The notes under the pieces were generated by a model. That model saw only the letters and a program-made list of their open reading frames with translations. It had not been told where the DNA came from and ran no database searches. Position numbers and translations under genes: made by a program. From an uncultured Oscillospiraceae bacterium (GTDB taxonomy: Bacteria; Bacillota; Clostridia; Oscillospirales; Oscillospiraceae), in the NCBI GenBank assembly GCA_947629955.1, contig CANRFT010000025.1:1-32709 (forward strand): DNA of 32,709 nt, given 5' to 3'. Positions 3,173 to 31,458 of the stretch are shown here, in pieces; position 1 is the stretch's first letter; every line of letters starts with the position of its first letter.

Positions 3173-3221
3173 TCGTCAGATTGTGTTTTTTTCGGCAAAA
3201 CGATGCAGAATTTTGAGCGGG

Positions 3222-3250
3222 TTGCGGAAAGGGAAAAAGTGTGCTAAACT
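3222..3250 (+). promoter_or_regulatory. Sigma-A promoter of comM
   Basis: TTGCGG (3222-3227), 17-base spacer, TAAACT (3245-3250). The predicted start of transcription is about 22 bases before the comM start codon, and the ribosome binding site GAGAGGAGGG lies between them. The -10 hexamer and spacing match the kinase promoter at 13115-13143. Confidence 0.65.
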
Positions 3251-3278
3251 GTCAGAAAAACGAGAGGAGGGTGTCCCC

Positions 3279-16315: not shown

Positions 16316-16346
16316 GTGTCTGGAGAAAAGGGAGGAAATGATACAT

Positions 16347-18128
16347 ATGTCAGCGGAAGAAATTTTGAGCGCCGTCAACGGCGAACTGTTCGGCGTATGG
16401 TTCCTGATCGGGGCCGCGCTGGTGTTCTGGATGCAGGCCGGCTTTGCCATGGTGGAGACCGGCTTCACCCGTGCCAAGAACTCCGGCAACATTTTGATGA
16501 AGAACCTGATGGACTTCTGTATCGGTACCATCGTCTTCATCCTCATCGGTTCCAGCCTGCTGCTGGGGGAGGATATGATCGGTCTGATCGGCAAGCCGGG
16601 GCTTGACATCTTCACCGACTTCGCCAATTTTGACTTCTCCAGCTTTGTGTTCAACCTGGTGTTCTGCGCCACCACCGCCACCATCGTCTCCGGGGCCATG
16701 GCGGAGCGCACCAAATTCCTGAGCTACTGCATCTACTCCGCCGTCATCTCCGCCGTCATCTACCCCATCGAGGCCCACTGGACCTGGGGCGGCGGCTGGC
16801 TGGCCCAAATCGGCTTCCACGACTTCGCCGGCTCCAACTGCATCCACATGGTGGGCGGCATCAGCGCCTTCGTGGGGGCGGCCATCCTGGGTCCCCGGCT
16901 GGGCAAGTTCGTCCGGGACTCAGGCGGCAAGGTGATCAAGGTCAACGCCTTCCCCGGCCACAGCCTGCCCCTGGGCTGCCTGGGCGTGTTCATCCTCTGG
17001 CTGGGCTGGTACGGCTTCAACGGCGCCGCCGCCGTGTCCGTGGCTGAAATGGGCAGCATCTTCCTGACCACCACCATCGCCCCCTCGGTGGCCACGGTGG
17101 TGTGCATGATCTTCACCTGGATCAAGTACGGCAAGCCCGACGTCTCCATGTGCCTGAACGCCTCCCTGGCGGGGCTGGTGGCCATCACCGCCCCCTGTGA
17201 CGTGACCGACGCCTTCGGCGCCATCGTCATCGGCGCGGTGTCCGGCGTGCTGGTGGTGTTCGGCGTGTGGCTGCTGGACTACAAGCTCCACGTGGACGAC
17301 CCCGTAGGCGCCGTGGCGGTCCACTGTCTCAACGGCATCTGGGGCACCCTCGCCGTGGGCCTCTTCGCCACCGACACCGCCCCCGCCTTCGCCCGCGGCA
17401 TCGGCGACGGGATCAACTTCGGCGCCAACCAAATCGCCGGCAAGGGCCTGTTCTACGGCGGCGGCTTCCGCCAGCTGGGCCTCCAGTTCGTGGGGATGCT
17501 CTCCACCGCCGCCTTCACCGCCGTGACCATCACCATCACCTTCCTGGTCATCAAGGCGCTGGTGGGCCTGCGGGCCGGCCGTGAGGAGGAGATCACCGGC
17601 CTGGACGTGACCGAGCACGGCCTGTCCTCCGCCTACGCGGGCTTCAGCATCATCGACACCAACGCCCACGATGTGATGGCTGAGATCGCCCCCGAGGCCT
17701 CCGTCTCCGCCCCAGCCCAGGTGGCCATCCCCGCCGCCTCCGCCCCCGCGGCGAAGGAGCCCGGCGAGCCCAAGCTCACCAAGGTCTCCATGGTGTTCAA
17801 CCAGGAACGTCTGGAGGGCCTGAAGAAGGCCATGAACGACGTCGGCGTCACCGGCATGACGGTGACCCAGGTCCTGGGCTACGGCACTCAGAAGGGCCAC
17901 GACACCTATTACCGCGGCGTCAAGCTGGACAGCGTGAAGCTGCTGCCCAAGGTGAAGGTGGAGGTGGTCGTCAGCAAGGTGCCCGTGCAGACGGTCATCG
18001 ACGCGGCCCGGAAAGCCCTCTACACTGGCCACGTTGGCGACGGCAAGTTCTTCGTCTACGACGTGGAGCAGGTGGTCAAGGTCCGCACCGGCGAGATCGG
18101 CTACGACGCCCTCCAGGGCGAGGACTGA
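16347..18128 (+). CDS. Ammonium transporter fused to a PII signalling domain
   Basis: 593-residue fusion. Residues 1 to about 420 are a full Amt/MEP/Rh channel with eleven or so membrane segments. They include the signature DFAGSNCIHMVGGISAF, with the first pore histidine, and GAVAVHCLNGIWGTLAVGLF, with the second. An Ala/Pro-rich linker (about 421-475) leads to a PII (GlnB/GlnK) domain, 476-593. This has the T-loop GYGTQKGHDTYYRG, the nucleotide-site LYTGHVGDGKFFV and the C-terminal RTGE. The uridylylated Tyr of the enteric T-loop is absent (YRGVKLD where GlnK has YRGAEYS). Start at 16347 lies 11 bases after GGGAGG; an in-frame ATG at 16338 is too close to it. Expected to import ammonium with built-in gating by ATP/ADP/2-oxoglutarate. 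Confidence 0.96.
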   Translation: MSAEEILSAVNGELFGVWFLIGAALVFWMQAGFAMVETGFTRAKNSGNILMKNLMDFCIGTIVFILIGSSLLLGEDMIGLIGKPGLDIFTDFANFDFSSFVFNLVFCATTATIVSGAMAERTKFLSYCIYSAVISAVIYPIEAHWTWGGGWLAQIGFHDFAGSNCIHMVGGISAFVGAAILGPRLGKFVRDSGGKVIKVNAFPGHSLPLGCLGVFILWLGWYGFNGAAAVSVAEMGSIFLTTTIAPSVATVVCMIFTWIKYGKPDVSMCLNASLAGLVAITAPCDVTDAFGAIVIGAVSGVLVVFGVWLLDYKLHVDDPVGAVAVHCLNGIWGTLAVGLFATDTAPAFARGIGDGINFGANQIAGKGLFYGGGFRQLGLQFVGMLSTAAFTAVTITITFLVIKALVGLRAGREEEITGLDVTEHGLSSAYAGFSIIDTNAHDVMAEIAPEASVSAPAQVAIPAASAPAAKEPGEPKLTKVSMVFNQERLEGLKKAMNDVGVTGMTVTQVLGYGTQKGHDTYYRGVKLDSVKLLPKVKVEVVVSKVPVQTVIDAARKALYTGHVGDGKFFVYDVEQVVKVRTGEIGYDALQGED

Positions 18129-18806: not shown

Positions 18807-19940
18807 TCAGCGGACAGGCGCTCCGCCGAAAATGACCTGTCGGAGGCCGAGCCCCCGGTCAAGGATCAGCACGTCCGCCCGCTTTCCCGGCGTCAGGCTG
18901 CCTACGACGTCGTCCAGCCCGACGGACGCGGCGGGATTGACGGAAGCCGCCTTCACCGCGCTCTCCAGGGGGACGCCGAACTCTGCCGCCCGGCGCAGGC
19001 AGTCCGTCAGCACGGTGACGCTGCCCGCCAGAGAACCGCTGGCGATGGTGGCGGACCTTCCTTTCACCGTGACCGTCTGGCCCCCCAGCTCATACTGGCC
19101 GTCCGGCATACCGCAGGCCCGCATGGCGTCGCTGATCAGGCAGACGCGGTCGTCCCCGAACAGGCGGAACACCGAGCGCACCATGGCGGGATGGATATGT
19201 ACCCCGTCGCAGATCAGTTCCACCCAGGCGTCCGAGTCCGCCGCCGCGCCCACAATGCCGGGGTCCCGGTGATGGAAGGCCGGCATCCCGTTGAACACGT
19301 GGGTGATGTGGTCCGCGCCGGAGGACAGGGCCTCCCGGGCGGCAGCGTAGTCCGCGCAGGAGTGGCCCAGCGATACGCCGCACACCTCAGACGCCCGGCG
19401 GACAAACTCCATGCCCCCCTCCATCTCGGGGGCCACCGAAACCACCCGGATGCCGCCGCCGCTGGCCGCGTTCAGCCGGGTAAACATTTCGTAGTCCGCG
19501 GGGATGATATACTTCCGGTTCTGGGCGCCCCGTTTCTCCGGGTTGAAGAACGGGCCCTCCATGTTGATCCCCCGCAGGACCGCCCGGCCGGGCAGCTCCG
19601 CGCCGACGCGGGGACGGGCCGCGCGGTAGATCTCTGTCAGCCGCTCCTCCGGCAGCGCCATGGAGGTGCCCAAGAAGCTGGTCACGCCCTGTGACAGCAG
19701 GAACCGCGCCATGGTATCCACAGCCTCTTCGGTGCCGTCGCTGAAGTCCATCCCCATGGCCCCGTGGATGTGGATATCCACCAGGCCCGGGATGACGAAG
19801 CATCCTTCCGCGTCCAGGATCTCCTCCCCGCCGGACGGCAGCCCGGTCCCCATCTCGGCAACGGTCTTCCCCGACAGCCGGAGGTCCAGCTTCCGGAAGG
19901 TCCCGTCCGGGCAGAACACTGTCCCGTTTCTGATCAGCAT
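18807..19940 (-). CDS. nagA: N-acetylglucosamine-6-phosphate deacetylase (NagA family)
   Basis: 377-residue amidohydrolase removing the acetyl group from N-acetylglucosamine-6-P (or GalNAc-6-P in AgaA paralogues), giving the amino sugar phosphate and acetate. Metal and catalytic residues are visible: His57 and His59 (VDIHIHG), Glu128 (INMEGPFF), His193 (LGHSCAD), His214 (HVFNGM) and the general base Asp271 (LISDAM). DGVHIHP is the substrate loop. Length is normal. It is 22 bases downstream of the gntR regulator and cotranscribed with it. The divergent PTS/AgaS/GatZ genes hint that its real substrate may be an acetylated sugar other than GlcNAc-6-P, such as GalNAc-6-P; the specificity is not readable from sequence. 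Confidence 0.94.
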   Translation of the reverse strand: MLIRNGTVFCPDGTFRKLDLRLSGKTVAEMGTGLPSGGEEILDAEGCFVIPGLVDIHIHGAMGMDFSDGTEEAVDTMARFLLSQGVTSFLGTSMALPEERLTEIYRAARPRVGAELPGRAVLRGINMEGPFFNPEKRGAQNRKYIIPADYEMFTRLNAASGGGIRVVSVAPEMEGGMEFVRRASEVCGVSLGHSCADYAAAREALSSGADHITHVFNGMPAFHHRDPGIVGAAADSDAWVELICDGVHIHPAMVRSVFRLFGDDRVCLISDAMRACGMPDGQYELGGQTVTVKGRSATIASGSLAGSVTVLTDCLRRAAEFGVPLESAVKAASVNPAASVGLDDVVGSLTPGKRADVLILDRGLGLRQVIFGGAPVR

Positions 19941-19962: not shown

Positions 19963-20709
19963 TCATGTGGAGGCGTCGTCCACGAAATAGGAGGTCTTGA
20001 ATTTGTATTTGTCTCCCCGCACCACCGTGCGGTGGATAATGATCAAATAATCCCCCTCATAGCAGAACCGCTCGCAGAGCATACAGGCCACATGGGCCGG
20101 GATTCCCAGCAGCATCCGCTGCTTTGAGGTGGGAAGCAGCGGGGACAGCGTCTCGTAGGCCTCCGTGATCTCCATGTTGTAATACTTTTTCAGATAGGCG
20201 TACAGGGAGCCGTCTTTCAGCAGATCGGGGTCGATGGAGAGGAAGCGGCTCTGGAGCAGATAGCTGACTTCGATCATCAGGGGATAGTCCTCCGCCAGGC
20301 GCAGCCGGGTCAGTTTGTGCCACCGTGAGCCGGCCGGAACGCTCCGGCAGAGCTCCTCCTCCAGTGAGTCCAGATATTTGTCGGATTCGATGAGCTCGCA
20401 GTCCAGGATCTGATTTTTCATCCTGATGTGGTTGGCGTCGAGACTTCCGGCGAACGAATGGAAGTTGGTGAGCTTCTGGTCGAATACCCTGGGCTTCACA
20501 TAATTGCCGTTCCCCTGGGCCTTGACGATATATCCGTCCTGCTGGAGGTCGTCCAGCGCCCGGCGGATGGTGGACCGGCTGACGTGGAACGACGCGCACA
20601 GCGCCCGCTCCGTGGGCAGGATACCGTTTTCAGAGTAGGTCCCGTTTTCGATCTCTTTCCGCAGCTCATCATAGACTTGGCGATATAACGGCTTGTCGTC
20701 AATCTCCAT
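19963..20709 (-). CDS. GntR/HutC family transcriptional regulator with UTRA domain
   Basis: 248-residue repressor. An N-terminal winged helix (residues 1-75; LPTERALCASFHVSRSTIRR and GYIVKAQGNGNYV) is followed by a UTRA effector domain (about 95-240), which in NagR/YvoA binds amino-sugar phosphates. It is the first gene of the nagA operon and faces the PTS operon, so it is the obvious regulator of both. Candidate operators lie in the shared promoter region. The start follows AAGGGGGGG. Its C-terminal half is somewhat richer in A/T than the enzymes around it. The ligand is inferred to be a phosphorylated amino sugar. Confidence 0.92.
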   Translation of the reverse strand: MEIDDKPLYRQVYDELRKEIENGTYSENGILPTERALCASFHVSRSTIRRALDDLQQDGYIVKAQGNGNYVKPRVFDQKLTNFHSFAGSLDANHIRMKNQILDCELIESDKYLDSLEEELCRSVPAGSRWHKLTRLRLAEDYPLMIEVSYLLQSRFLSIDPDLLKDGSLYAYLKKYYNMEITEAYETLSPLLPTSKQRMLLGIPAHVACMLCERFCYEGDYLIIIHRTVVRGDKYKFKTSYFVDDAST

Positions 20710-20732: not shown

Positions 20733-20760
20733 ATTTTATACAACGGAGCGTATTTGTCAA
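20733..20760 (-). promoter_or_regulatory. Sigma-A promoter of gntR-nagA
   Basis: On the minus strand consensus TTGACA (20760-20755), 16-base spacer, TAAAAT (20738-20733). Confidence 0.7.
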
Positions 20761-20764
20761 GAGT

Positions 20765-20793
20765 TGGATACCACCGGCGAATTGGTACCCATT
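20765..20793. promoter_or_regulatory. Candidate tandem GntR operators
   Basis: AATTGGTACCCATT (20780-20793) is palindromic at 12 of 14 positions, and TGGATACCA (20765-20773) has matching outer arms TGG-N3-CCA about 18 bases away. The core resembles the TTGGTATAGA-type sites of the YvoA/NagR regulators. They sit between the two divergent genes, next to the gntR -35. A possible extended -10 for the plus-strand operon, TGTCATATT, lies at 20809-20817, but no good -35 accompanies it. Confidence 0.5.
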
Positions 20794-20887
20794 ATATGGA
20801 CGTACCGCTGTCATATTGGGCATAAATCGGCCGGGAGCATTGATTATTTTGTGCAAATATGCTAAAAATGCATTGGAGGGATGAATT

Positions 20888-21334
20888 ATGATGCGAGATT
20901 TGATTACCGAGGAGACCTTCCTGGACGATGTGGTGTGCGCCGATTGGGAGGCGCTGGCTGACATCGGGGCCGGTCTGCTGGAGGCCCGGGGGGCGGTCCG
21001 GCCGACCTACGTGCAGTCGATCAAGGACACCGTGAAAGAGTTCGGCCCGTACATGGTCGTGGTAGACGATCTGGTCTTTTTCCACGGCCGGCCCGAGGCC
21101 GGCGTCAACGAGACCTCCATGAGCCTGGTGCTGCTGCGGGACCCGGTGTATCTGGAGGGGCGGCGCATCATGGCGGCCATCGTGTTCGCCGCGGTGGATA
21201 ACAGCAGCCATCTGGAGCTGATGCGGGAGCTGGGCGGCTTCCTGCAGGATGAGGAGTTTCTAAAGCTGCTGCGGGAGCACGGCAGCAGAGAGGAGATCAT
21301 GAAAAAAATTACGGAAGGGGCTAAGTTGGAATGA
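20888..21334 (+). CDS. PTS sugar transporter subunit IIA (ascorbate/mannitol-type)
   Basis: 148-residue EIIA of the fructose/mannitol fold, closest in pattern to the ascorbate (UlaC/SgaA) branch. The phosphorylated histidine is His66 in DDLVFFHGRPEAGV, followed by the usual N-TSMSLVLL strand. It receives phosphate from HPr and hands it to IIB. First gene of the plus-strand operon; ATG at 20888 lies 7 bases after TGGAGGG (an ATG at 20881 is out of frame). Its last four bases overlap the next gene (ATGA). Cognate IIB, IIC, EI and HPr are all downstream. Confidence 0.9.
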   Translation: MMRDLITEETFLDDVVCADWEALADIGAGLLEARGAVRPTYVQSIKDTVKEFGPYMVVVDDLVFFHGRPEAGVNETSMSLVLLRDPVYLEGRRIMAAIVFAAVDNSSHLELMRELGGFLQDEEFLKLLREHGSREEIMKKITEGAKLE

Positions 21335-22065
21335 AGTTTCGTGAATACTACGACATTGTGTCAGAGCAGTTGGGCCGCCAGTTTGACGAAGAGGCCGGCA
21401 ATATCGAGAAAGCGGCGGAGTACTGCGCCGCGTCGGTATGCAGCGGGCGGGTCATCCATGTGTTCGGCTGCGGCCACTCCCAGATGTTCGCCATGGAGGT
21501 GTTCTACCGCGCCGGCGGCCTGGTGCCCGTCAACGCCCTGTTGATCCCCCACCTCGCTCTGTTCCCCAAGGCCAAGCTCAGCACCCTCCAGGAGCGGGTG
21601 GAGGGCTTCACGGATCAGTACCTTGAGCTGGAGGACACGGACCCCAGAGACACGCTCATCGTGGTATCCGTCTCCGGGCGCAACGCGGGCGTGGTCGATA
21701 TCGCGCTGGAGGCGAAAAAGATCGGCATGAAAGTGATCGCGCTCACCTCCAGGGACTTCTCCTCCAGCACCACCTCCCGCCACTCCAGCGGGAAACACCT
21801 GGCCGACGCGGCCGACGTCGTCATCGATCTGAAATGCGTCAGCGGCGACGCGGTGCTGGAGATGGAGGGGCTGGAGCCCAGATTCTGCGGCACATCCACC
21901 GTTCTGGGCATGGCGGTGATGGAAGCGCTGGTGGCGCAGACCGTGGAGAACTGTGTGAAGGCCGGCTATACGCCCCCCATCTACGTCAGCTCCAACCTGG
22001 ACAAGGGCGACGCCATCAACGCCGAACACATCCGGAACTACTGCAAGCTGATCACCTGTCTCTGA
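21331..22065 (+). CDS. SIS domain phosphosugar-binding protein (COG4821-like)
   Basis: 244-residue single SIS (sugar isomerase) domain protein. The phosphosugar-binding loops are VFGCGHSQMFAMEVFYRAGG (about residues 44-63) and VVSVSGRNAGVVDIALEAKK (about 111-130). Proteins of this kind bind or isomerise hexose phosphates, but the substrate of this subgroup is not established. It is translationally coupled to IIA (ATGA overlap) and lies between IIA and IIB, so it probably acts on the imported sugar phosphate. A second, different SIS protein follows in the same operon; the division of labour is unknown. The family assignment is from memory of the motif layout. Confidence 0.85.
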   Translation: MKFREYYDIVSEQLGRQFDEEAGNIEKAAEYCAASVCSGRVIHVFGCGHSQMFAMEVFYRAGGLVPVNALLIPHLALFPKAKLSTLQERVEGFTDQYLELEDTDPRDTLIVVSVSGRNAGVVDIALEAKKIGMKVIALTSRDFSSSTTSRHSSGKHLADAADVVIDLKCVSGDAVLEMEGLEPRFCGTSTVLGMAVMEALVAQTVENCVKAGYTPPIYVSSNLDKGDAINAEHIRNYCKLITCL

Positions 22066-22149
22066 TCCCACAGTTCGTCAATATCGGCGCCCGCCGCCGA
22101 AAGCGCGGATCCGAGGCGCCCCACGGCGCCCGGGAGGAAGGAAGGAATT

Positions 22150-22431
22150 ATGCATATCGTTTGTGTGTGCGGGCTCGGCATGGGATCGAGTCTGATCCTC
22201 AAAATGACAGTGGACAAGACATTGAAGGAGCTTGGCGCCACGGGGCACGACATCGAGCACTGGGACGCGGGCACGGTGGACAGCCGCGGCGCCGACCTCA
22301 TCGTCACCTCCGCTGACTTTGAGAGCCGTTTCAGCGGCAGGGACAACGTGATCTTTGTCAACAACGTAGTCAACACCGGGGAGGTGAAAGAAAAACTGAA
22401 GACCTATCTGGAAGCCCGCCATCTGCTCTGA
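22150..22431 (+). CDS. PTS sugar transporter subunit IIB (ascorbate-type)
   Basis: 93-residue IIB of the lactose/ascorbate fold. The phosphorylated cysteine is Cys7 in CVCGLGMGSSLILKM, the typical C-G-x-G-x-GSS loop of SgaB/UlaB proteins. It accepts phosphate from IIA His66 and passes it to the sugar as IIC moves it across the membrane. The ribosome binding site GGGAGGAAGGAAGG is very strong. The 84-base gap before it contains a GGCGCC-rich stretch but no clear terminator. Confidence 0.93.
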   Translation: MHIVCVCGLGMGSSLILKMTVDKTLKELGATGHDIEHWDAGTVDSRGADLIVTSADFESRFSGRDNVIFVNNVVNTGEVKEKLKTYLEARHLL

Positions 22432-22471
22432 GGAACCAAGAAAAGAGAAAGTAAAGAAAGGAAGGTAAACG

Positions 22472-23824
22472 ATGTCAGTATTAAACTTTTTCCTGGAGCT
22501 GCTTGAGACTCCTACCATCGTCCTGGCTGTTGTGGCCCTGATCGGCCTGATCGCCCAGGGCAAGAAATTCCCCGATGTGTTCTCCGGAACGGTCAAAACG
22601 GCCCTGGGCTACCTGGTGCTGTCCGCCGGTTCCAGCCTGCTGGTCACGGAGATCCTGCCCTTTGTGGGCCTGTTCCAGGAGGTATTCCACTTGGACGGCT
22701 TCGCCACCGGCTCCGAGGTCATCGTGGGCGCCATCCAGGACTCCGTCCCCGTGATCGCGTCCACCTCCGCCATCATCATGGGCGCAGGCTTCCTGGTCAA
22801 CATCCTGCTGGCCCGCTTCACCCCGCTGAAGTACATCTTCCTTACGGGCCACATGATGTGGATCAGCTCCGTCGCCGTTGCCTTCTGCCTCTATGAGGCG
22901 GGCTTCAACAGCACCATGATCATCATCATCGGCATCATTCTTCAGGGCGCCGTCCTCACCCTGCTGCCCGCCATCTCCCAGCCCCTGGTCCGCAAGGTCA
23001 CCGGCAGCAACGACTTCGCCATCGGCCATCTGACCACCCTGGGCACCGTCTCCTCCGCCTACATCGGCGGCCTGGTCGGCGGCAAGAGCAAGAGCGCCGA
23101 GGAGATGAAGCTGCCCGAGCAGCTGAAGTTCTTTAAGGACACCTCTATGTCCATCTCCATCGTGATGTTCGTGTTCTACATGCTGGTGGTCATCCTGGCC
23201 GGCCCCGAGAAGGTCGCCGCGTATTCCGGCGGGACCAACTATCTGGTCTATGGCCTGCTCCGCGCGCTGGGCTTCACCGCCGGTATCCTGGTCCTGCTGC
23301 AAGGCGTCCGGATGCTGCTGGGCGAGCTGGTCCCCGCCTTCAAGGGCATCGCCGACAAGCTGGTCCCCAACGCCATCCCCGCGCTGGACGTGCCCGCCCT
23401 GTTCGGGTTCGCCCCCAACTCCCTGATGCTGGGCTTCATCTTCGCCACCATCGGCATGATCGTCGCGATGTTCCTGTCCTCTGTCCTGTTCGGTGTGGTG
23501 CCTCTGGTGTCCATCATCGGCGCGTTCTTCACCGGCGGCGTGGCCGGTATCTTCGGCAATGCCAAGGGCGGCCGCATCGGCGCCATGGTATCCGGTTTCG
23601 TCTACGGCCTCGAGCTGATCCTCTTCTCCGGCTTCACCTATAAGCTGTTCGACCACTTCGCCGCCGTTGGCGCCGAAGGGACCGGACATGACTGCATCGA
23701 CGCCATGGCCCTCATGACGGTGATGAAGTACCCCATCGTCGGCATCATCGTGATCATCGGCGCGTTCGTCCTGCTGTGTGTGCTGGAACAGCGGCATCAG
23801 AAGAAGGTCAGTGAAGGCCAGTAA
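22472..23824 (+). CDS. PTS sugar transporter subunit IIC (UlaA/SgaT family)
   Basis: 450-residue integral membrane permease of the ascorbate PTS family (SgaT/UlaA), with about eleven hydrophobic segments. Typical stretches are LNFFLELLETPTIVLAVVAL at the N-terminus, the FATGSEVIVGAIQDSVPVI loop and FLTGHMMWISSVAVAFCLYE. Length agrees with the family (440-480). It forms the channel part of the PTS. Family members are known for L-ascorbate, but many clostridial homologues sit beside amino-sugar or pentose genes, so the substrate should not be read as ascorbate here. It is followed by an internal terminator hairpin. Confidence 0.93.
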   Translation: MSVLNFFLELLETPTIVLAVVALIGLIAQGKKFPDVFSGTVKTALGYLVLSAGSSLLVTEILPFVGLFQEVFHLDGFATGSEVIVGAIQDSVPVIASTSAIIMGAGFLVNILLARFTPLKYIFLTGHMMWISSVAVAFCLYEAGFNSTMIIIIGIILQGAVLTLLPAISQPLVRKVTGSNDFAIGHLTTLGTVSSAYIGGLVGGKSKSAEEMKLPEQLKFFKDTSMSISIVMFVFYMLVVILAGPEKVAAYSGGTNYLVYGLLRALGFTAGILVLLQGVRMLLGELVPAFKGIADKLVPNAIPALDVPALFGFAPNSLMLGFIFATIGMIVAMFLSSVLFGVVPLVSIIGAFFTGGVAGIFGNAKGGRIGAMVSGFVYGLELILFSGFTYKLFDHFAAVGAEGTGHDCIDAMALMTVMKYPIVGIIVIIGAFVLLCVLEQRHQKKVSEGQ

Positions 23825-23859
23825 ATAATCGTTTTGATCCGAAGCGCCGGAGCTTTCCT

Positions 23860-23896
23860 GCGGGCGGGGTGTGATACGCCACTCCGCCCGCTTTTT
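23860..23896 (+). terminator. Internal terminator after PTS IIC
   Basis: 12-bp stem GCGGGCGGGGTG / CACTCCGCCCGC (23860-23871, 23880-23891; one G-U pair), eight-base loop, then TTTTT. No promoter is evident in the 30 bases before the next gene, so it probably lets through only part of the transcripts. Confidence 0.8.
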
Positions 23897-23925
23897 ATCC
23901 GGCTGACAGATTAGGAGGAGACAAT

Positions 23926-24951
23926 ATGTACGTACTTGAGCAGGAACTGCGGGATCAATTCCACGCCGCCGCGCGGACCGCGGAGTTGCTGGCGGCCCGG
24001 CGGGAGGAGATCCGGGCGGAATTTTCCGGCATACGGACGCTGTGCGTGCTGGGGTGCGGCTCCAGTTTCAGCGTGGCAAGATCCGCCGCCACGCTGTTCT
24101 CCCAGCACACGGGGATCCCCGCCTTCGCCCTGGCGGCCGGCGACCTTCTGGTCAATTTCCCGGATTACCGCAGGATGCTGTCGGGCGCCGCGCTGCTGGT
24201 GCTCTCCCGCTCCGGCTCCACCAGTGAGGCGGTGCGGGCGGCCCGGCGGTGCGGGGAGGAGCTTGGCTGCCGGATCCTGTCCGTCTGCGCGAAGGAGGAC
24301 ACCCCCCTGCACCCGCTGGCGGACTGGGAGCTTTGCATCCCCTGGGCCTTTGACGAGGCGGTCTGCCAGACCCGCACGGTGACCAACCTCTATCTGGTGG
24401 TCCTGGGGATCGCCCGCATCGCCGGCGGCGAGGGCACAGAGGATCTCGCCGCGGCGGCGGCAGCGGCCGAAGCCTTCTGCCCCGCACAGGAGCAGGTCCT
24501 CGCCGGGCTCGCGGAAAAGCCGTGGACCAGGGCAGTCGTCCTGGGGGACAGCGGCATGGCCGGCCTGCTGGAGGAGGGCGCTCTGGCCTTTAAGGAGATC
24601 TGCCGCAGGGACTCCAACCACTATCACCTTCTGGACGTCCGCCACGGGCCCATGGTACAGATCGGCCGGGACACGCTGGTCGCCGCCGTGGTCTCTTCCG
24701 GGGACCGGAAGCTCCAGCTGGACCTTCTGAAGGATGTGAGCGCGAAGACCGATCTTCTCTTGGTGCTGGACTGCGGCGAGGGGCAGGAGCCCGTTCCGGG
24801 CATACGGATCTCCCTGCCGGACTGCGGGCCGGATGAGCTGCGGGCCGTGTTCGCCCTCTTCTGCCTCCAGGAGCTCTGCTTCCGGCACGCGCTCGTCCGC
24901 GGCGTGGACCCCGACCGGCCGGAGGGCCTTGACCCATGGATCAGTCTTTGA
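23926..24951 (+). CDS. AgaS/GlmS-like tandem SIS isomerase (sugar-phosphate deaminase/isomerase)
   Basis: 341-residue protein with two SIS domains, as in the isomerase half of GlmS, AgaS and FrlB. The first has LCVLGCGSSFSVARSAATLF and VLSRSGSTSEAVRAARRCG (phosphosugar loops); the second has the AVVLGDSGMAGLLEEGALAF and ICRRDSNHYHLLDVRHGPM stretch with conserved His and Glu. AgaS deaminates and isomerises galactosamine-6-P to tagatose-6-P; FrlB deglycates fructoselysine-6-P. NagA and GatZ next door make AgaS the better analogy. Ribosome binding site TAGGAGGAG. Its last 16 bases overlap the next gene. The exact substrate is inferred. Confidence 0.87.
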   Translation: MYVLEQELRDQFHAAARTAELLAARREEIRAEFSGIRTLCVLGCGSSFSVARSAATLFSQHTGIPAFALAAGDLLVNFPDYRRMLSGAALLVLSRSGSTSEAVRAARRCGEELGCRILSVCAKEDTPLHPLADWELCIPWAFDEAVCQTRTVTNLYLVVLGIARIAGGEGTEDLAAAAAAAEAFCPAQEQVLAGLAEKPWTRAVVLGDSGMAGLLEEGALAFKEICRRDSNHYHLLDVRHGPMVQIGRDTLVAAVVSSGDRKLQLDLLKDVSAKTDLLLVLDCGEGQEPVPGIRISLPDCGPDELRAVFALFCLQELCFRHALVRGVDPDRPEGLDPWISL

Positions 24952-26255
24952 GAGAGAACCCCCTGCTGGCGCTGCTCCGGAACCGGGAGCGGGGGCGGCA
25001 GATGGGGGTGTGGTCCTGCTGCAGCGCGAACGAATATGTGATCCGAGCGGCTATGCGCCGGGCAAAGGGCGCGGAGATCCCCGTGCTGGTAGAGGCCACG
25101 GCCAATCAGGTCAATCAGGACGGCGGCTATACCGGAATGACCCCCGTGGAGTTCCGCGCGTTCCTGTCCCGCATCGCCGCGGAGGAGGGGCTTCCGGCGG
25201 AGCGGGTGCTGTGCGGCGGCGACCATCTGGGCCCCCTCACCTGGCGCGGGCTCCCCGCGGCGGAGGCTATGGCCCGGGCCGAGACGCTGGTGGAGAGCTA
25301 CGTGCTGGCCGGATTTTCAAAGATCCACCTGGACACCAGCATGCGCCTTGGGGACGACGACCCGGAGGCGCGGCTCAGCGACGAGGTGATCGCCCAACGG
25401 GGCGCCCGCCTGTGCGCCGCTGCGGAGCGGGCCTGGGCGCGGCTGTCTGAAACCCGCCCCGGCATCCCCGCGCCTGTCTATGTGATCGGCAGCGAGGTGC
25501 CGATCCCCGGAGGCGCGCAGGAGAACGAGGACTCGGTGGCGGTCACCGATCCGGGCGCCTGCCGGGCCACGCTGACGGCCTTCAGGAGCGCGTTCGAGCG
25601 GCGCGGCCTGGAGAGTGCCTGGGGCCGGGTGGTCGGCCTGGTGGTACAGCCCGGCGTGGAATTTGCCGATGAGTCGGTGGTGACATACCGCCGCGCGGCG
25701 GCGGAAGGGCTGACCGCCTGTCTGAGGGATTGGCCCGAACTGGTATTCGAGGGGCACTCCACCGACTATCAGCCGCGCGAGGCCCTCCGGGAGATGGTCG
25801 AGGACGGCATCGCCATCCTCAAGGTAGGCCCCGCCCTCACCTTTGCCCTGCGGGAAGGGCTGTTCGCCCTGGAGGAGATCGAGCGTGAACTGAGCGGGCT
25901 TTACGGGCTTGCGCCCAGCGGGTTCCGCTCCGCGCTGGAGAACGCCATGACGGAGGACGACCGCTACTGGGCCGGCTATTACCGCGGCAGCCCGGAGCGC
26001 TGCCGCTATGCCCGGTCCTTCAGCTATTCCGACCGCGCGAGATACTATCTCCCCTGCCCCGGGGTGGCCGCCGCAATCTCCCGTCTGATGGAGAACCTGG
26101 ATCGCCGGCCCATCCCTCCGGCACTGCTCAGCCAGTACCTGCCCGCCCAGTATGAGCGGGTCAGGACAGGGGCGCTGCCGGACCGGGCAGAGGATATCCT
26201 CATCGACCGGGTCGGAGACAGGATCGACGACTACATATACGCCGTGCTTCGATAA
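24936..26255 (+). CDS. GatZ/KbaZ-like tagatose-bisphosphate aldolase accessory subunit (COG4573)
   Basis: 439-residue protein of the GatZ/KbaZ/AgaZ family. In E. coli these proteins stabilise and activate the class II tagatose-1,6-bisphosphate aldolases GatY/KbaY; the family has also been listed as a predicted tagatose-6-P kinase. TIM-barrel segments: GVWSCCSANEYVIRAAM, VLVEATANQVNQDGGYTGMT, VLCGGDHLGPLTW, FSKIHLDTSMRLGDD, and a late FEGHSTDYQ. The conserved His/Asp pattern resembles a degenerate aldolase barrel. No GatY/KbaY partner is in the window. The start follows GGAGG and overlaps agaS-like by 16 bases. Links the pathway to tagatose phosphates. Confidence 0.9.
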   Translation: MDQSLRENPLLALLRNRERGRQMGVWSCCSANEYVIRAAMRRAKGAEIPVLVEATANQVNQDGGYTGMTPVEFRAFLSRIAAEEGLPAERVLCGGDHLGPLTWRGLPAAEAMARAETLVESYVLAGFSKIHLDTSMRLGDDDPEARLSDEVIAQRGARLCAAAERAWARLSETRPGIPAPVYVIGSEVPIPGGAQENEDSVAVTDPGACRATLTAFRSAFERRGLESAWGRVVGLVVQPGVEFADESVVTYRRAAAEGLTACLRDWPELVFEGHSTDYQPREALREMVEDGIAILKVGPALTFALREGLFALEEIERELSGLYGLAPSGFRSALENAMTEDDRYWAGYYRGSPERCRYARSFSYSDRARYYLPCPGVAAAISRLMENLDRRPIPPALLSQYLPAQYERVRTGALPDRAEDILIDRVGDRIDDYIYAVLR

Positions 26256-26265
26256 GGAGGCCTGT

Positions 26266-26931
26266 ATGTACAGCACACTGCTGTTCGACATGGACGGAAC
26301 ACTGATCGATTCCGAGGCCAGCATCTGGATATCCCTGTGCCACGCGCTGGAGGCGGCGGGCCAGCCGCCCATTCCGCGCGAGCGGACCCGCGAGTTCATC
26401 GGTCCCCCGCTGGATCGCACCCTCAGCGATCTGCTGGGCCTCTCCGGGGAGACCTTTCAGCGGGTGTGGGACGGCTATGCCGCCCATTACCGGCAGGTGG
26501 GGCTGTACGGCTCCGAGCCTGTTCCCGGGATGCCGGAGCTGGTCGCCCGGCTGAAAAAGCGGGGGTTCCGCCTGGCGGTGGCCACCTGCAAGCCGTGGGA
26601 CTACTGCGGCCCCATTCTGGAGCTCTGCGGCTTCGGCGACAGTTTCGAGGTGGTGGCCGGCAGCTTTCACAACGGCGTGCCGGAGAACAAGGCCGCGGTC
26701 ATCCGCGACGCGCTCCGCCAGCTGAACGCGGGCACGGAGGGCGTCCTGATGGTGGGAGACCGGGCCGCGGATGTGGCGGGCTCCAGGGCCTGCGGGATCC
26801 CCTGCGTGGGGGTGGACTTCTGCGGCTACGCCGATCCCGGCGAGATGGAGGCGGCGGGGGCCCTGGCGGTATTCGACACCATGGACGGACTGGAGCGTTT
26901 TCTGACCGGGAACGCCGGATCTCAGAATTGA
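26266..26931 (+). CDS. HAD family sugar-phosphatase or mutase-like hydrolase
   Basis: 221-residue haloacid dehalogenase superfamily hydrolase of the Gph/beta-phosphoglucomutase type. The nucleophile motif is LLFDMDGTLIDSE (DxDGT), motif III is the Lys in PENKAAVI, and the closing acid pair is MVGDRAADVAG. The helical cap lies at about residues 15-85. It most probably dephosphorylates a sugar phosphate or phosphoglycolate. ATG at 26266 follows AAGGAGG and gives the canonical N-terminus; the open frame to 26152 is not used. It sits 10 bases after GatZ within the operon, so it may detoxify or recycle a pathway phosphate. Not certain. Confidence 0.88.
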   Translation: MYSTLLFDMDGTLIDSEASIWISLCHALEAAGQPPIPRERTREFIGPPLDRTLSDLLGLSGETFQRVWDGYAAHYRQVGLYGSEPVPGMPELVARLKKRGFRLAVATCKPWDYCGPILELCGFGDSFEVVAGSFHNGVPENKAAVIRDALRQLNAGTEGVLMVGDRAADVAGSRACGIPCVGVDFCGYADPGEMEAAGALAVFDTMDGLERFLTGNAGSQN

Positions 26932-26947
26932 AACGGAGATGAATGTC

Positions 26948-28687
26948 ATGGTACTCAAGGGAAAAGCGGTATCCAGAGGCGTCGCCCTGGGGCCGGTCCT
27001 GCGTTACGCGCCTTTTCAGCCCGTTCTGACGAAGGAGCTCCTCCCGGCCGGCGGGGCGGAGGCCGCTCTGGCGGCGTACCGCGCCGCGCGGGCCGCCGCC
27101 CAAAAGGAGTTGGACGGGCTGGAGCGGCGGCTCGCGTCCGCGGACCCGGAGCAGGCGAAGATCATGGCCGCCCACCGGGATATCCTCCTGGACCCCGCCA
27201 TGGATGAGGAGATCACCGATCTGGTCAACTATGACGGGGTGAGCCCGGACGCCGCCGCCGACCAGGTCTTCCGGACCTACGCCGGGATCCTCAGGGGATC
27301 GGACAACCCGCTGATGCGGGAACGGGCCGCCGATCTGCTGGACGTACTCAACCGCCTGCTGCGCTGCTGGGCCGGAGCGCCGGAGCGCGACCTCTCCCGG
27401 CTGGACCGGCCGGTCATCGTGGTGGCCGACGACCTCTATCCCTCCGACACCGCCGCCATCGACCGGAAAAACGTGCTGGGGATCATCACCCAGACCGGCG
27501 GCAGCACCTCCCACACCGCGATCATCGCCCGGGGCTACGGGATCCCCGCCATCCTGGGCGTCCCAAACGCGATGGAGGCACTGGAGGACGGGCAGAAGGT
27601 CGTTCTGGACGGGGAGACGGGGGAGATCATCGCGGATCCCTCTGAGGCGGAAGAGGCGGCCTACCGCCGGAAATCGGAACGGGTGGCCGCCGCCCTGCGG
27701 GATCTGGACGCCTTTCTGGACGCGGAGCCCGTGACCCGGGACGGCGTCCGCGTCCAGGTGCGGCTGAACGTGGCCGCCGCGGGGGAGCGGGAACTCTCCA
27801 GCGCGGAGCATGTGGACGGCTGCGGGCTGTTCCGCACGGAGTTCCTCTATCTGAACCGGGAACAGCTCCCCGGTGAGGAGGAACAGTACCTCGCCTATCG
27901 GAAGGTATTGGAGCGCTTCGGAGACAAGCCGGTGATCCTGCGCACCATGGATATCGGCGGGGACAAGCAGTTCCCCGGCTCCGAGGAGCTTCGGGAGGAC
28001 AACCCCTTCCTTGGCCTGCGGGGCCTGCGGCTCTCTCTGGAGCGGCCGGAGCTCTTCCGGGTCCAGGCCCGCGCCATTCTCCGCGCCTCCGTCCACGGGA
28101 ACATGAAGGTGATGATGCCCATGGTGGGCAGTCTGGAGGAGTACCGCCAGGCCAAAGCCGTGTTCGCCGGGGAGATGGACGCGCTGGACCGGGAGGGGAT
28201 CCCCTGGGACCGGGATCTGCGCCTTGGGATCATGATCGAGGTCCCGTCCATCGCCCTCATCGCCGACCTGGCGGCCCAGGAGGTAGATTTTGCCAGCGTG
28301 GGCACCAATGACCTGACGCAGTACCTCTGCGCGGCGGACCGCGTCAGCCCGTCGGTGCGCGCCTATTACAAGGAATACCACCCCGCCGTGTTCCGCACGC
28401 TGGCCTATCTGGCCAGAGCCTTCCGGGACGCCGGACGCGAGCTGAGCATCTGCGGGGAACTGGGCGGCGACCCGCTGGCGATCCCGGCGCTGGTCGGGCT
28501 CGGGATCCGCCAGCTCTCCATGGGCGCGGCATCCGTCCCGGCCGCAAAGCGCGTTATCCGCTCCCTGGATCTGCCTGCGGCGGAGCGGTTGGCGGAAGAG
28601 GTACTGCATCAAAAGACACAAGAGGATGTCCGCGCCTGCCTGGAGCGGTTCGCGTCCGGGCTGGCCGGCCAGGAAAAGGAGGCTTGA
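26948..28687 (+). CDS. ptsI: PTS Enzyme I (phosphoenolpyruvate-protein phosphotransferase)
   Basis: 579-residue, full-length Enzyme I. It takes phosphate from PEP and gives it to HPr. The active-site His189 lies in GGSTSHTAIIARGYGIPAIL, inside the swivel domain. The C-terminal PEP barrel has GLFRTEFLYL, ILRTMDIGGDKQF, GIMIEVPSIALIADL and SVGTNDLTQYL. The usual CGEMAGD site reads CGELGGD, a mild change. ATG at 26948 lies 9 bases from GGAG; an in-frame ATG at 26939 touches that GGAG and is unlikely. Being in a sugar-specific operon beside its own HPr, it may be a dedicated second Enzyme I rather than the housekeeping copy. Confidence 0.95.
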   Translation: MVLKGKAVSRGVALGPVLRYAPFQPVLTKELLPAGGAEAALAAYRAARAAAQKELDGLERRLASADPEQAKIMAAHRDILLDPAMDEEITDLVNYDGVSPDAAADQVFRTYAGILRGSDNPLMRERAADLLDVLNRLLRCWAGAPERDLSRLDRPVIVVADDLYPSDTAAIDRKNVLGIITQTGGSTSHTAIIARGYGIPAILGVPNAMEALEDGQKVVLDGETGEIIADPSEAEEAAYRRKSERVAAALRDLDAFLDAEPVTRDGVRVQVRLNVAAAGERELSSAEHVDGCGLFRTEFLYLNREQLPGEEEQYLAYRKVLERFGDKPVILRTMDIGGDKQFPGSEELREDNPFLGLRGLRLSLERPELFRVQARAILRASVHGNMKVMMPMVGSLEEYRQAKAVFAGEMDALDREGIPWDRDLRLGIMIEVPSIALIADLAAQEVDFASVGTNDLTQYLCAADRVSPSVRAYYKEYHPAVFRTLAYLARAFRDAGRELSICGELGGDPLAIPALVGLGIRQLSMGAASVPAAKRVIRSLDLPAAERLAEEVLHQKTQEDVRACLERFASGLAGQEKEA

Positions 28688-28691
28688 TCCC

Positions 28692-28958
28692 ATGTATACC
28701 AAGGAAATCGAGATCGTCAACGCCACCGGGCTCCACGCCCGCCCCGCTTCACAGTTCGTCGCCAAGGCGGGCTCCTTCCGCTCCCGGATCCAGATCCGGC
28801 GGGTGGGAGACGAAAAGTGGTACAACGCCAAGGCGATCGTCATGCTTATGACCCTGGGCCTGGCCCAGGGAGAGCGGGCCGAGATCTCCGCCCAGGGAGA
28901 GGATGAGCAGGAGGCGGTAGAGGCCCTGGCCGCCCTGGTGGCGGACTTGAAGGAATAA
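28692..28958 (+). CDS. ptsH: HPr phosphocarrier protein lacking the Ser46 site
   Basis: 88-residue HPr. The phosphorylated His15 is intact in NATGLHARPASQF, so it can shuttle phosphate from Enzyme I to IIA. The regulatory serine phosphorylated by HPr kinase (Ser46 in LKSIMGVMSLG of Bacillus) is replaced by Ala48 in NAKAIVMLMTLG; the loop before it is two residues longer. It should therefore not report carbon status through CcpA. The start lies four bases after the ptsI stop (coupled), with GGAGG inside the end of ptsI. Last clearly cytoplasmic gene of the operon. Confidence 0.94.
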   Translation: MYTKEIEIVNATGLHARPASQFVAKAGSFRSRIQIRRVGDEKWYNAKAIVMLMTLGLAQGERAEISAQGEDEQEAVEALAALVADLKE

Positions 28959-29037
28959 GCGGCCGGACGCCCCCCATATCCGACTTGTCAACATCCGCAC
29001 GGTATGCGGAAAAAATAAAAGAAAAGGAGCAAAAAAC

Positions 29038-31458
29038 ATGAAAAAGTCAGTTAGATCAATCCTCGCCGTGACGCTTGCCCTGATCATGCTGATCGGCGCG
29101 GCGCCCCTCACCGTCTTTGCGGCCGCCTCCGGTCGCACCGTTTCCTTCGACCCCGGCCGGGGCGGCACAGGAGAGATGGAAAGTGTCACCGTGACGAACG
29201 GCGGCACCTACAAGCTGCCCGAGAACACCTTTACCGCCCCGGATGGGTGGACCTTCCTGGGCTGGCAGGTGGGCGCGTTCACCGGGCTGCGGCCGGTCGG
29301 CTATGAGATCACCGTCACGGAGGACACGGTGATCACCGCCCGCTGGAAGAGAGACATCGACTGGGTGGTCAAGTACGAGGAGAACTTCGACAAGGCCGTC
29401 GATCACGACCAGGGCGAATGGGTCCGGGACGATTTCACCCTCGAGTCCGACATCTACTGGGGCGACAACGGCTACGGCACTATTGCCCGCGCCAATCAGG
29501 GCCGTATGAGCGCCGAGACCTTCTATGAGCAGCTGAACGCGATCGAGGCCTGGCGCAAGTCCTACACCCTCGGCACCGACGGCTGGCTGACCGTCAACAC
29601 CTACGGCGTGGGCGAGAACGGCGAGCCGCCCAAGGACGGCGCCAAGTTCGTCATCAACGGCGACGGCAAGGCCGTGCTGGTGGTCCCCAAGCACAACGAC
29701 GCCGTGGTGATGGCCTCCACCAACCCCCTGCCCGATACCTACCGCATCGAGGTCACCATCTCTGATATCGACTTCGGCGGCCTGAACTGGGACGAGGAAG
29801 CGGGCCAGGAGCTGAAGATGGACGGCACCTGGACGCCGTGGACCAGCGACTGGCAGTCCGATTACACCAAAAAGTACATCGACTATGAGGGCGACCGGAT
29901 CAACGGCTACTTCGCTGACAGCGTGGCCGGCGCCGGCAATGCCGGGCCCTGGCTCGGCGGCGCCGAGGCGGCCACGCAGAACGGGTTCTACTTCCTGTCC
30001 ATCGTGGACTACGGCACCCCCATGCCCCACAACAACACCTTCATCCACCACCACCGCAAGGTGGCCATGGACACCGACAACAACGGCCTGAACCCCTGGT
30101 CCAATGTCCATCAGGCCGACGGTTCGAATCCGGCGGACGGTTCCAAATACGTCTCCATGCTGTGGATGTATGACCGGGACCAGAGCCTCAACAGCGGCAA
30201 CACCTTCTACGCCCACTCCTCGTTCGGCAACATGAGCGGCAGCAACATGGTGGACAAGTACATCCCCGGTGAGAGCTACACCTTCGCCGTCGAGCGCACC
30301 CCCACCGACTACACCCTGGAGGTCACCGGCAAGTTCCAGGTCGGCGGCGAGACCACCTACCGCTGGACCAAGGCCAACCTGCCCGACGCCACCACCGGCG
30401 ATCCCATGGATGACCACTATACCTTCCACTTCAACCAGACGCTGGAGGAGCTGCAGAATGCTCTGCCCGACTGGGCCAACGACACCTATTCCGACGGCTT
30501 CCAGTATTTCGAGAACACCCAGATGGGCCCGGACGGCGACTTCCCCCACACCTACTGGAGCGAGACCGAGGGCTATCCCGACTACTTCTACATGGGCGTC
30601 CCCCATATCAACTGGTATGCCGGCACCGCTGTGTACAGCAGCCTGAAGCTCCTGGTCCCCGCGGACGATGTGGATGACCCCGCCATCTACGGCGTTGAGA
30701 CCTATTCCTACATCAGCCAGGAGACCGGCGCCACCGGCATCGTCGAGCGCAGCGTCAAGCAGGCCCACGCGGGCGAGACGGTCACCCTCACCCCTGTTGC
30801 CGGCACCATGTACAGGCCCACCGGCGTGACGGTGACGACCGGCGACGGAAAGGACGTGGCGGTCACTGACAACGGCGACGGCACCTACAGCTTCACCATG
30901 CCCGCCAGCAAGGTCATCACGACCGGCAAGTTCGCTCACATCAGCGACTACTACGAGGACGTGGGCGCGAGCAGCTGGTATCTTGACGCCGTCGGCTACG
31001 CGGTGGCGAAGGACCTGATGAAGGGCACCGGCGAGCACATGTTCAGCCCGGCGGACACCATCGACCGCGCCCAGGTCATGACCATCCTGGCCCGCAGGGC
31101 GGGGGTGGATACCGACAGCGGGGACCCCGATCCCTGGTATGCGAAGGGCCTGGCCTGGGCCGTTGAGCAGGGCATATCCGACGGTGCGGAACCGGAAACG
31201 CTCATCACCCGCGAGCAGTTGGTCACATTGCTGTACCGGCTGGAGGGCAGACCAGAGGCGGACCTCTCCGTGCTGGAGAACTACTCCGACGCCTCTGATA
31301 TCCACGATTGGGAGGACTTCCCGGCGGCCATGGCCTGGGCCGTGCAGAGCGGCATCCTCCAGGGCGACGGCACGGGCAGACTGATCCCCCTCAGAAACGC
31401 CACACGCGCTGAGGCCGCGCAGCTCCTCATGATGTATTGCAGGGACATCCACAAATAA
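29038..31458 (+). CDS. Secreted S-layer-homology protein with unknown middle domain
   Basis: 806-residue exported protein. A signal peptide (residues 1-28, charged KKSVR then LAVTLALIMLIGAAPLTVFA) is followed by an InlB-type B-repeat (about 33-103; FDPGRGGTGEME, GWTFLGWQVGAF, VITARW). A large aromatic- and Asn-rich region spans about 105-550 and is not recognised; its beta-rich character (FENTQMGPDGDF, GTAVYSSLKLLVP) suggests a lectin- or jellyroll-like fold. A second beta repeat (about 553-630) and three SLH motifs (about 638-806) that anchor to cell-wall polymers end it. It lies 79 bases after HPr; a small CCGCA/TGCGG hairpin followed by A-rich sequence, but no clear promoter, precedes it. 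Could bind or degrade the glycan that feeds the PTS. Confidence 0.85.
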   Translation: MKKSVRSILAVTLALIMLIGAAPLTVFAAASGRTVSFDPGRGGTGEMESVTVTNGGTYKLPENTFTAPDGWTFLGWQVGAFTGLRPVGYEITVTEDTVITARWKRDIDWVVKYEENFDKAVDHDQGEWVRDDFTLESDIYWGDNGYGTIARANQGRMSAETFYEQLNAIEAWRKSYTLGTDGWLTVNTYGVGENGEPPKDGAKFVINGDGKAVLVVPKHNDAVVMASTNPLPDTYRIEVTISDIDFGGLNWDEEAGQELKMDGTWTPWTSDWQSDYTKKYIDYEGDRINGYFADSVAGAGNAGPWLGGAEAATQNGFYFLSIVDYGTPMPHNNTFIHHHRKVAMDTDNNGLNPWSNVHQADGSNPADGSKYVSMLWMYDRDQSLNSGNTFYAHSSFGNMSGSNMVDKYIPGESYTFAVERTPTDYTLEVTGKFQVGGETTYRWTKANLPDATTGDPMDDHYTFHFNQTLEELQNALPDWANDTYSDGFQYFENTQMGPDGDFPHTYWSETEGYPDYFYMGVPHINWYAGTAVYSSLKLLVPADDVDDPAIYGVETYSYISQETGATGIVERSVKQAHAGETVTLTPVAGTMYRPTGVTVTTGDGKDVAVTDNGDGTYSFTMPASKVITTGKFAHISDYYEDVGASSWYLDAVGYAVAKDLMKGTGEHMFSPADTIDRAQVMTILARRAGVDTDSGDPDPWYAKGLAWAVEQGISDGAEPETLITREQLVTLLYRLEGRPEADLSVLENYSDASDIHDWEDFPAAMAWAVQSGILQGDGTGRLIPLRNATRAEAAQLLMMYCRDIHK

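Follow-up and report, generated by a model that had tools for sequence, protein, structure and literature searches.

Introduction

The aga/kba pathway of Escherichia coli consists of a phosphotransferase system (PTS) with mannose-family IIABCD (AgaPTS), AgaA or NagA, AgaS, a kinase, and KbaYZ or GatYZ, and its regulator is the DeoR-type AgaR. In this study, we analyzed a sugar locus on the 32,709-nucleotide contig CANRFT010000025.1 of an uncultured, gut-type Oscillospiraceae bacterium (GCA_947629955.1), and this whole stretch is called the window hereafter. The locus resembles that pathway in its predicted import by a PTS, its NagA-type deacetylase, its SIS deaminase/isomerase, its GatZ/KbaZ protein and its entry at the level of tagatose-6-phosphate, each of which has a counterpart in the E. 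coli pathway as outlined in PMC12118421. Unlike E. coli, the window has a Ula-family IIABC transporter, a GntR regulator, an additional NagS-like SIS protein (SIS1), and its own enzyme I (EI) and HPr, while neither KbaY/GatY nor a LacC-type kinase was found in it and its other SIS protein (SIS2) falls below the AgaS cut-off.

Single components of the locus have described relatives as well. GatZ and KbaZ of E. coli were reported to convert fructose-6-phosphate to tagatose-6-phosphate, and relatives from Agrobacterium and Sinorhizobium are cited alongside them in PMC11907403. According to PMC12680351, NagS of Streptomyces (SCO4393) dehydrates N-acetylglucosamine-6-phosphate (GlcNAc-6-P), and its reaction was abolished when H53, R64, E94 or D179 was mutated to Ala. 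The UlaABC ascorbate PTS has the same architecture of IIC with IIA and IIB as the transporter of the window.

With a probability of about 0.58, we interpret the locus as a self-contained amino-sugar utilization locus, most likely for N-acetylgalactosamine (GalNAc) or a derivative of it, with a Ula-type PTS, its own EI and HPr, and a bypass through GatZ as an epimerase. The observations behind this interpretation are the gene content and order, their conservation across genomes, the grouping of the EI proteins, the conservation of catalytic residues, and a genome in which neither a kinase above the cut-off nor a second class II aldolase was found. The locus is a variation on PTS amino-sugar loci and not a new kind of system.

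Gene content of the locus

The plus strand carries, in one direction, the genes for IIA, SIS1, IIB, IIC, SIS2, GatZ, a HAD-family phosphatase, EI, HPr and a secreted SLH protein, and gntR and nagA lie opposite on the minus strand. An earlier reading of the DNA without database searches, here called the sequence-only reading, had proposed this gene set and orientation, and all of the named genes were recovered from the coordinates of the open reading frames (ORFs) and from profile matches to Pfam and NCBIfam. The transporter is composed of IIA (20888-21334, PF00359, PTS_EIIA_2), IIB (22150-22431, PF02302, PTS_IIB) and a IIC of the Ula/EIIC-GAT family (22472-23824, PF03611, 358.4 bits). Together with EI (26939-28687; TIGR01417, 527.9 bits over a cut-off of 341.7) and HPr (28692-28958, PF00381), these subunits make up an encoded complete sugar PTS. 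Judged by known motifs, its relay would run through His192 of EI (in TSHTAI), His15 of HPr, His66 of IIA (in FFHGRPE) and Cys7 of IIB (in CGLGMGSS), the latter two being taken as phosphorylation sites by analogy. The overlap is 4 bp between IIA and SIS1 and 16 bp between SIS2 and GatZ, and only 10, 7 and 4 nt separate GatZ from HAD, HAD from EI and EI from HPr, respectively; such overlapping and tightly spaced genes are operon anatomy.

The draft genome to which the window belongs (as contig C25) measures 2.2 Mb in 75 contigs and is 98.5% complete. Gene absence in this genome was judged on that draft, from which genes may be missing. One IIC of the Ula/EIIC-GAT family was found in the genome. 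The PF02378 and PF03613 permeases, the latter being the EIID of the mannose-family PTS that serves the aga pathway, gave 0 matches; other PTS families were not searched. Within the families covered, the earlier description of the locus as self-contained holds in substance (one EI, one IIC of the family and neither of these permeases). As for descriptions of a Ula-type PTS for GalNAc or of UPF0309 proteins, one literature search gave no hits, and the word ascorbate occurs 0 times in the main text of PMC12118421 and of PMC5583593, which is not proof of absence from the literature.

Related loci

Using the IIC protein as a query against a genome collection of 84,980 species, we obtained 48 loci, which are a sample since the search relied on short peptide patterns. 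Genes in these loci were counted by phmmer at 1e-8 with each ORF assigned to its best query, and since the loci are limited by the length of the flanks and by the ends of contigs (L021 and L028 start near IIC), absences are not firm. The core of IIA, SIS1, IIB and IIC is common, where SIS1 was present in 43, IIB in 44 and IIA in 41 of the 48 IIC loci, and no other enzyme of the locus is as constant as SIS1. It was missing from five loci, namely L021 and L028 (both cut), L027, L049 and L050.

Other genes are added to this core more variably. A second SIS protein was found in 18 loci (AgaS-type in 14, window-type in four), NagA in 11, a class II aldolase in 10 (one of them a fragment, in L006), PfkB in nine, EI and HPr in nine each, the domain of the secreted protein in seven, and GatZ in four. 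The HPr of L030 was missed at the phmmer cut-off and is detected by a profile hidden Markov model. An AgaS-type SIS protein, a class II aldolase and PfkB occur together in eight loci (L019, L026, L030, L031, L033, L034, L038 and L040), six of which also hold NagA. The families of these added genes were checked on L030 alone, where the AgaS family scored 398 bits (below its cut-off of 529), the GatY subfamily 412 bits (over 383) and the TIGR03168 hexose kinase 313 bits (over 216). This set of AgaS, aldolase, PfkB and NagA is the known route for GalNAc via tagatose-6-phosphate, reviewed in PMC12118421. As such, the presence of AgaS-type, GatY/KbaY-type, PfkB and NagA genes beside the same PTS in relatives supports the earlier proposal of an amino-sugar route that reaches tagatose phosphates through an unusual transporter, with the substrate itself being predicted.

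The gene order of the window also recurs elsewhere. The sequence-only reading had called for a search of related genomes for the same gene set, and three loci from other genomes (L006, L007 and L046) carry the window-type SIS2, GatZ, HAD and EI downstream of IIC, and L006 and L046 carry HPr as well. L007 is cut off at EI by the end of its contig, whereas for L046 we found no IIB and a IIC without its first residues. Since these three loci share the window-type order after IIC, the arrangement in the window is not due to chance.

Two further observations concern the surroundings of this transporter family. Genes that by eye encode subunits of a mannose-family PTS are found close to the Ula-type PTS in L045 and L051 and also at the edge of L029, and in L045 these genes accompany an AgaS-type SIS protein and a class II aldolase. 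L049 and L050, which have a more distant IIC (41-42%) and no SIS1, have in common two genes, c177 and c179, that by eye are creatininase-like and phosphotriesterase-like.

Enzymes of the breakdown route

NagA (18807-19940, minus strand) matched Amidohydro_1 and scored 290.8 bits against TIGR00221, over the cut-off of 225.65, and is thus a predicted deacetylase of N-acetyl-hexosamine-6-phosphate of the NagA/AgaA type. SIS2 (23926-24951, plus strand, PF01380) is a predicted amino-sugar-6-phosphate deaminase/isomerase of an AgaS/GlmD/GlmS-like kind. It passed no NCBIfam cut-off, with 64-67 bits to each of the GlmS, AgaS and GlmD models, and its score against the AgaS model TIGR02815 was 65.8 of the 529.2 bits required.

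The GatZ/KbaZ-like protein (24936-26255, plus strand) matched PF08013 with 573.5 bits and TIGR02810 with 520.8 bits, short of the equivalog cut-off of 568.8. All seven active-site residues named for E. coli GatZ are kept (C20, E44, D87, H88, E171, H257 and K279), and the same seven are conserved in L006, L007, L046 and L052. The protein is therefore a predicted tagatose-6-phosphate 4-epimerase, and it differs from the studied GatZ and KbaZ in having no adjoining aldolase gene and in being part of an amino-sugar operon.

In the window, no aldolase or kinase gene stands beside GatZ. When the whole draft was searched with TIGR03168 for a tagatose-6-phosphate-type kinase, no protein exceeded the cut-off, and the four matches scored 22-30 bits (best 29.6). 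The draft holds one class II aldolase, of the fructose-bisphosphate type (TIGR01859, 355 bits over a cut-off of 343); no second class II aldolase that could serve as a tagatose-bisphosphate aldolase was found, and the class I (LacD-type) enzymes were not searched. The kinase and the tagatose-bisphosphate aldolase of the aga pathway were thus not recovered in this genome. Among the 48 loci, GatZ and PfkB never co-occur, GatZ being present in four loci only. The general rule that GatZ always replaces KbaY and PfkB was considered as well and is weakened by the GatY-like fragment in L006.

Enzyme I and HPr

Most bacteria have EI and HPr as housekeeping proteins in shared use. The EI of the window is the sole PF05524 match in its genome and the only EI found in the draft. 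A housekeeping EI with an extra copy in the locus was rejected, as one EI was found; the second PF02896 match, on contig C43, by eye belongs to the C-terminal portion of a pyruvate phosphate dikinase. For HPr, a second gene lies on contig C1 between genes that are by eye mutS2 and uvrC. This HPr has the Ser46 motif NAKSLLG, and an HPr kinase is encoded elsewhere in the genome. The HPr of the window has Ala at the position equivalent to the regulatory Ser46 (residue 48, NAKAI) and therefore could not be serine-phosphorylated at that site. Loss of this Ser as a general feature of the system was rejected, since the HPr of the sibling loci L006 and L046 keeps it.

The sequence-only reading had regarded EI and HPr as a private pair, and had counted it against this view if they were the only copies in the genome, which is so for EI and not for HPr. 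What stands of the private pair is its substance, a dedication to the locus supported by the single EI, the single IIC of the family and the EI tree described below; what does not stand is a second EI beside a housekeeping copy.

Among the 42 genomes of the genus, EI was found in 32 (19 of the 24 best genomes) and HPr in all 42, and no genus-wide housekeeping EI was seen. In the 10 genomes where HPr is present and no EI was found, a regulatory role for HPr is suggested. None of the other genomes among the 42 gave a window-type IIC, and two of them hold relatives of 36-39%. Of 47 other EI places listed in the genus, 45 were fetched, and an HPr frame lies at most 300 nt from EI in 24 of the 45 stretches, one further pair with a cut EI being uncounted.

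A tree was built from 52 EI proteins, comprising that of the window, nine from Ula-type loci and 42 from the 45 genus stretches (three were too short or weak). The EI of the window joined those of L006, L007 and L046 (SH-aLRT 99), followed by L014, L016, L020 and L024 (96) and then by L156 (100), the one genus member of the group, whose EI lies beside a distant Ula-type IIA, IIB and IIC. The remaining 41 EI proteins of the genus fall outside this group. A single clade of the window and all 42 genus EI proteins was rejected (p-AU 2e-8), where the group was chosen after the tree was seen. As judged from these sequences, EI phylogeny follows the PTS locus. Because the tree groups EI by Ula-type locus and the window-type IIC is rare in the genus, which has no universal EI, EI and HPr look like cargo of the locus.

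The NagS-like SIS protein

SIS1 (21331-22065, plus strand) matched PF13580 (SIS_2) and the UPF0309 model NF002805 (284.6 bits over a cut-off of 135), and its solved relatives are 3cvj and 9eol, the latter being Streptomyces NagS. The match to NagS is full length with an E-value of 3.7e-43 and 151 bits in phmmer. Residues H49, R60, E88 and D173 of SIS1, which correspond to the essential H53, R64, E94 and D179 of NagS, are invariant in 44 of 44 sequences (the window and 43 loci). In contrast with NagS, S91 is replaced by Thr in 44/44 and G227 by Ser in 43/44 of the SIS1 sequences, and SIS1 is embedded in a PTS operon. NagS orthologues are delimited in PMC12680351 by at least 58.7% identity and linkage to dmdR1, and SIS1 is by this measure a distant homologue. 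Thus, SIS1 looks like a catalytically intact predicted enzyme tied to one transporter and is not filed as NagS.

As the SIS1 gene adjoins the permease genes, the enzyme is suggested to act on the imported sugar phosphate itself. A bolder proposal, speculative and in our view improbable, is that SIS1 represents a class of PTS-coupled phospho-amino-sugar lyases that would perform a C3 elimination, as MurQ and NagS do, on an N-acetylhexosamine-6-phosphate that carries a 3-O-linked sugar or acid. A disaccharide taken up by the Ula-type PTS would then be split in the cell without a glycosidase, and that disaccharide would be supplied by the SLH-anchored domain as a new family of secreted, glycan-active proteins.

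Secreted protein and HAD phosphatase

The last gene (29038-31458, plus strand) encodes a protein with a signal peptide (by eye), an InlB-like repeat (weak PF18998) and C-terminal SLH repeats (PF00395). Residues 105-551, encoded at about 29350-30690, form an unclassified domain that gave nothing beyond chance-level matches in Pfam, NCBIfam, PDB, PHROGs or plasmids. The domain is found in seven other PTS loci, from Bacillus (two), Oceanobacillus (three), Lederbergia and one organism named Roseburia. Its gene stands directly 3' of IIC in six loci and after aldolase and PfkB in L033, and in L035 it is split over two frames. The alignment of the domain (A1), which covers six of the seven other loci, contains invariant blocks such as PHNN-FIH-HRKV-MD and PHIN, and the six intact relatives gave no SLH match. 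Within the phylum of the window, 1 of 398 genomes holds the domain, namely its own, and as this sample may lack Bacillus-type genomes, the count speaks for rarity around the window only. The contigs of L006 and L007 end before the position of this gene, and after HPr in L046 only weak, opposite-strand matches were seen in a stretch that is SLH-type by eye. Based on its linkage to PTS loci, the domain may have a glycan-binding or glycan-cutting role. The domain of L039 (Roseburia sp. 1XD42-34) aligns closest with those of the Oceanobacillus loci, and the name of this organism may be wrong.

The HAD-family phosphatase (26266-26931, plus strand, PF13419) follows GatZ in the window, L006, L007 and L046. 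Its start was set at the ATG after AAGGAGG, while the PF13419 scan used a longer frame from 26152. A different HAD type, detected with a query from L025, is present in five other loci (L016, L019, L020, L024 and L025). As two HAD types occur near the same PTS, a sugar phosphate may at times have to be dephosphorylated.

Transcription signals and neighbouring genes

The plus-strand genes may form more than one transcription unit, because a terminator-like hairpin with a 12-bp stem followed by TTTTT lies between IIC and SIS2 (23860-23891), which qualifies the reading of a single run of genes in one direction. Transcription may be attenuated or split there. The scanned region held 12 terminator-like sites against 7.3 expected, and this hairpin is among those with the longest stems.

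The GntR-family regulator (19963-20709, minus strand; PF00392, and PF07702 for its UTRA sensor domain) is preceded by a promoter-like TTGACA-16-TAAAAT (20733-20760, minus strand). The divergent regulatory region (20740-20890) contains a TGGTA...TACC / ATTGG footprint that is a possible GntR operator, its function being inferred. Eight such regions were viewed, the motif was seen by eye in some, and five were aligned, those of the window and of L007-L010. L005, L006 and L046 were omitted from the alignment since the motif was absent from the stretches as cut, those of L006 and L046 being partial intergenic regions. The only perfect inverted repeat that a scan of the regulatory region of the window returned was TATTT-N5-AAATA, and the footprint is suggestive only as a GntR operator.

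No tRNA or Rfam features were found in the window at the thresholds used. Positions 16314-18128 (plus strand) encode, in a single frame of 604 residues, an ammonium transporter whose C-terminus is fused to a P-II nitrogen regulatory domain. Positions 438-4805 (plus strand) form a very long frame of 1455 aa from GTG, open as far as position 3, that resembles Mg-chelatase/ComM in residues 968-1448 only; no Pfam family matched its first 960 residues, which overlap an open frame of 1026 aa on the opposite strand.

Discussion

Every substrate and activity of the locus is inferred, and the route that we favor is as follows. The SLH-anchored secreted protein would bind or cut an amino-sugar glycan at the cell surface, and the Ula-family IIABC, energized by the EI and HPr of the locus, would take up the sugar set free there in the form of its 6-phosphate, this sugar most likely being GalNAc or one of its derivatives. 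SIS1 would act directly on this imported sugar phosphate. NagA would take off the acetyl group of GalNAc-6-phosphate (GalNAc-6-P), SIS2 would deaminate and isomerize the resulting galactosamine-6-phosphate to tagatose-6-phosphate, and GatZ would epimerize the latter at C4 to fructose-6-phosphate, so that neither a tagatose-6-phosphate kinase nor a tagatose-bisphosphate aldolase would be needed. The HAD phosphatase probably clears surplus or dead-end sugar phosphate. The sequence-only reading was largely right in its interpretation and is corrected on the copy number of EI. It made no mention of the NagS-like nature and the constancy of SIS1, of a possible epimerase role of GatZ, or of the domain that the SLH protein shares with other loci of this PTS.

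Several observations weigh against this route. Streptomyces NagS is reported not to bind GalNAc-6-P (PMC12680351). TIGR00221, the model that NagA passes, takes its name from GlcNAc-6-P, and glucosamine-6-phosphate could be the substrate of SIS2, because this protein is equally distant from the AgaS, GlmD and GlmS models. Neither an AgaS-type nor a window-type SIS2 is nearby in 30 of the 48 loci, several of which show the core only, and the core therefore need not serve GalNAc everywhere. In L006, the start of a GatY-like aldolase lies right after HPr at the contig end, so that the GatZ of that locus could be an aldolase partner. In addition, the EI tree is a quick one without bootstrap and with long branches, and some of its joins, including that between the window and L156, were flagged as possibly false.

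Some of these points would fit a locus for GlcNAc or N-acetylmannosamine (ManNAc), in which the PTS delivers the 6-phosphate, NagA deacetylates it, SIS2 acts as a NagB-II/GlmD-like enzyme yielding fructose-6-phosphate, and GatZ and SIS1 serve side products or a second substrate. The best PDB relative of SIS2, 1j5x, was deposited as a glucosamine-6-phosphate deaminase, NagA exceeds the cut-off of a GlcNAc-6-P deacetylase equivalog, and NagS acts on GlcNAc-6-P and ManNAc-6-P (PMC12680351). However, such a route leaves no obvious work for GatZ, and the eight relatives with the same PTS and with AgaS-type, GatY/KbaY-type and PfkB genes fit tagatose-6-phosphate instead. Furthermore, three distant NagS homologues, one of them from Clostridium, showed negligible or no GlcNAc-6-P dehydration in section 10 of PMC12680351. 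We consider this alternative unlikely.

A classical aldolase route, in which the glycolytic phosphofructokinase phosphorylates tagatose-6-phosphate, the housekeeping class II aldolase splits the product and GatZ is a non-catalytic subunit, seems quite unlikely. It would agree with the names of TIGR02810 and PF08013 as aldolase subunits, with the GatY-like fragment downstream of HPr in L006, and with contig C5, where the class II aldolase and an ORF that is phosphofructokinase-like by eye are adjacent. However, that aldolase, the sole class II enzyme found in the genome, is of the fructose-bisphosphate type, GatZ and KbaZ are reported C4 epimerases, and the seven residues discussed in PMC11907403 are conserved in the GatZ of the window. 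Automated annotation would name the system a PTS for ascorbate or a pentose, because its IIC passes the ascorbate model NF006919 (405.7 bits, cut-off 380). That it truly is one is extremely improbable, since IIA and IIB reach only 72.9 of 187 and 34 of 138 bits against the ascorbate models, none of the genes in the locus matched the ascorbate-pathway enzymes UlaD-UlaG, and the NagA, SIS and GatZ genes that partner this transporter misfit ascorbate.

Returning to the route for GalNAc or a derivative, annotation by family models would describe an ascorbate transporter and an aldolase subunit, but the evidence speaks for a locus for amino sugars in which the tagatose-6-phosphate branch is shortened. 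In such a locus, GatZ would have a natural pathway in which to act as an epimerase by itself. Because SIS1 accompanies one and the same transporter in 43 of the 48 loci, the substrate of NagS-like SIS proteins outside Streptomycetaceae becomes testable. The unclassified secreted domain is a candidate for glycan activity, and the grouping of EI suggests that a PTS locus can bring EI and HPr along as cargo, here in a genus with a patchy distribution of EI.

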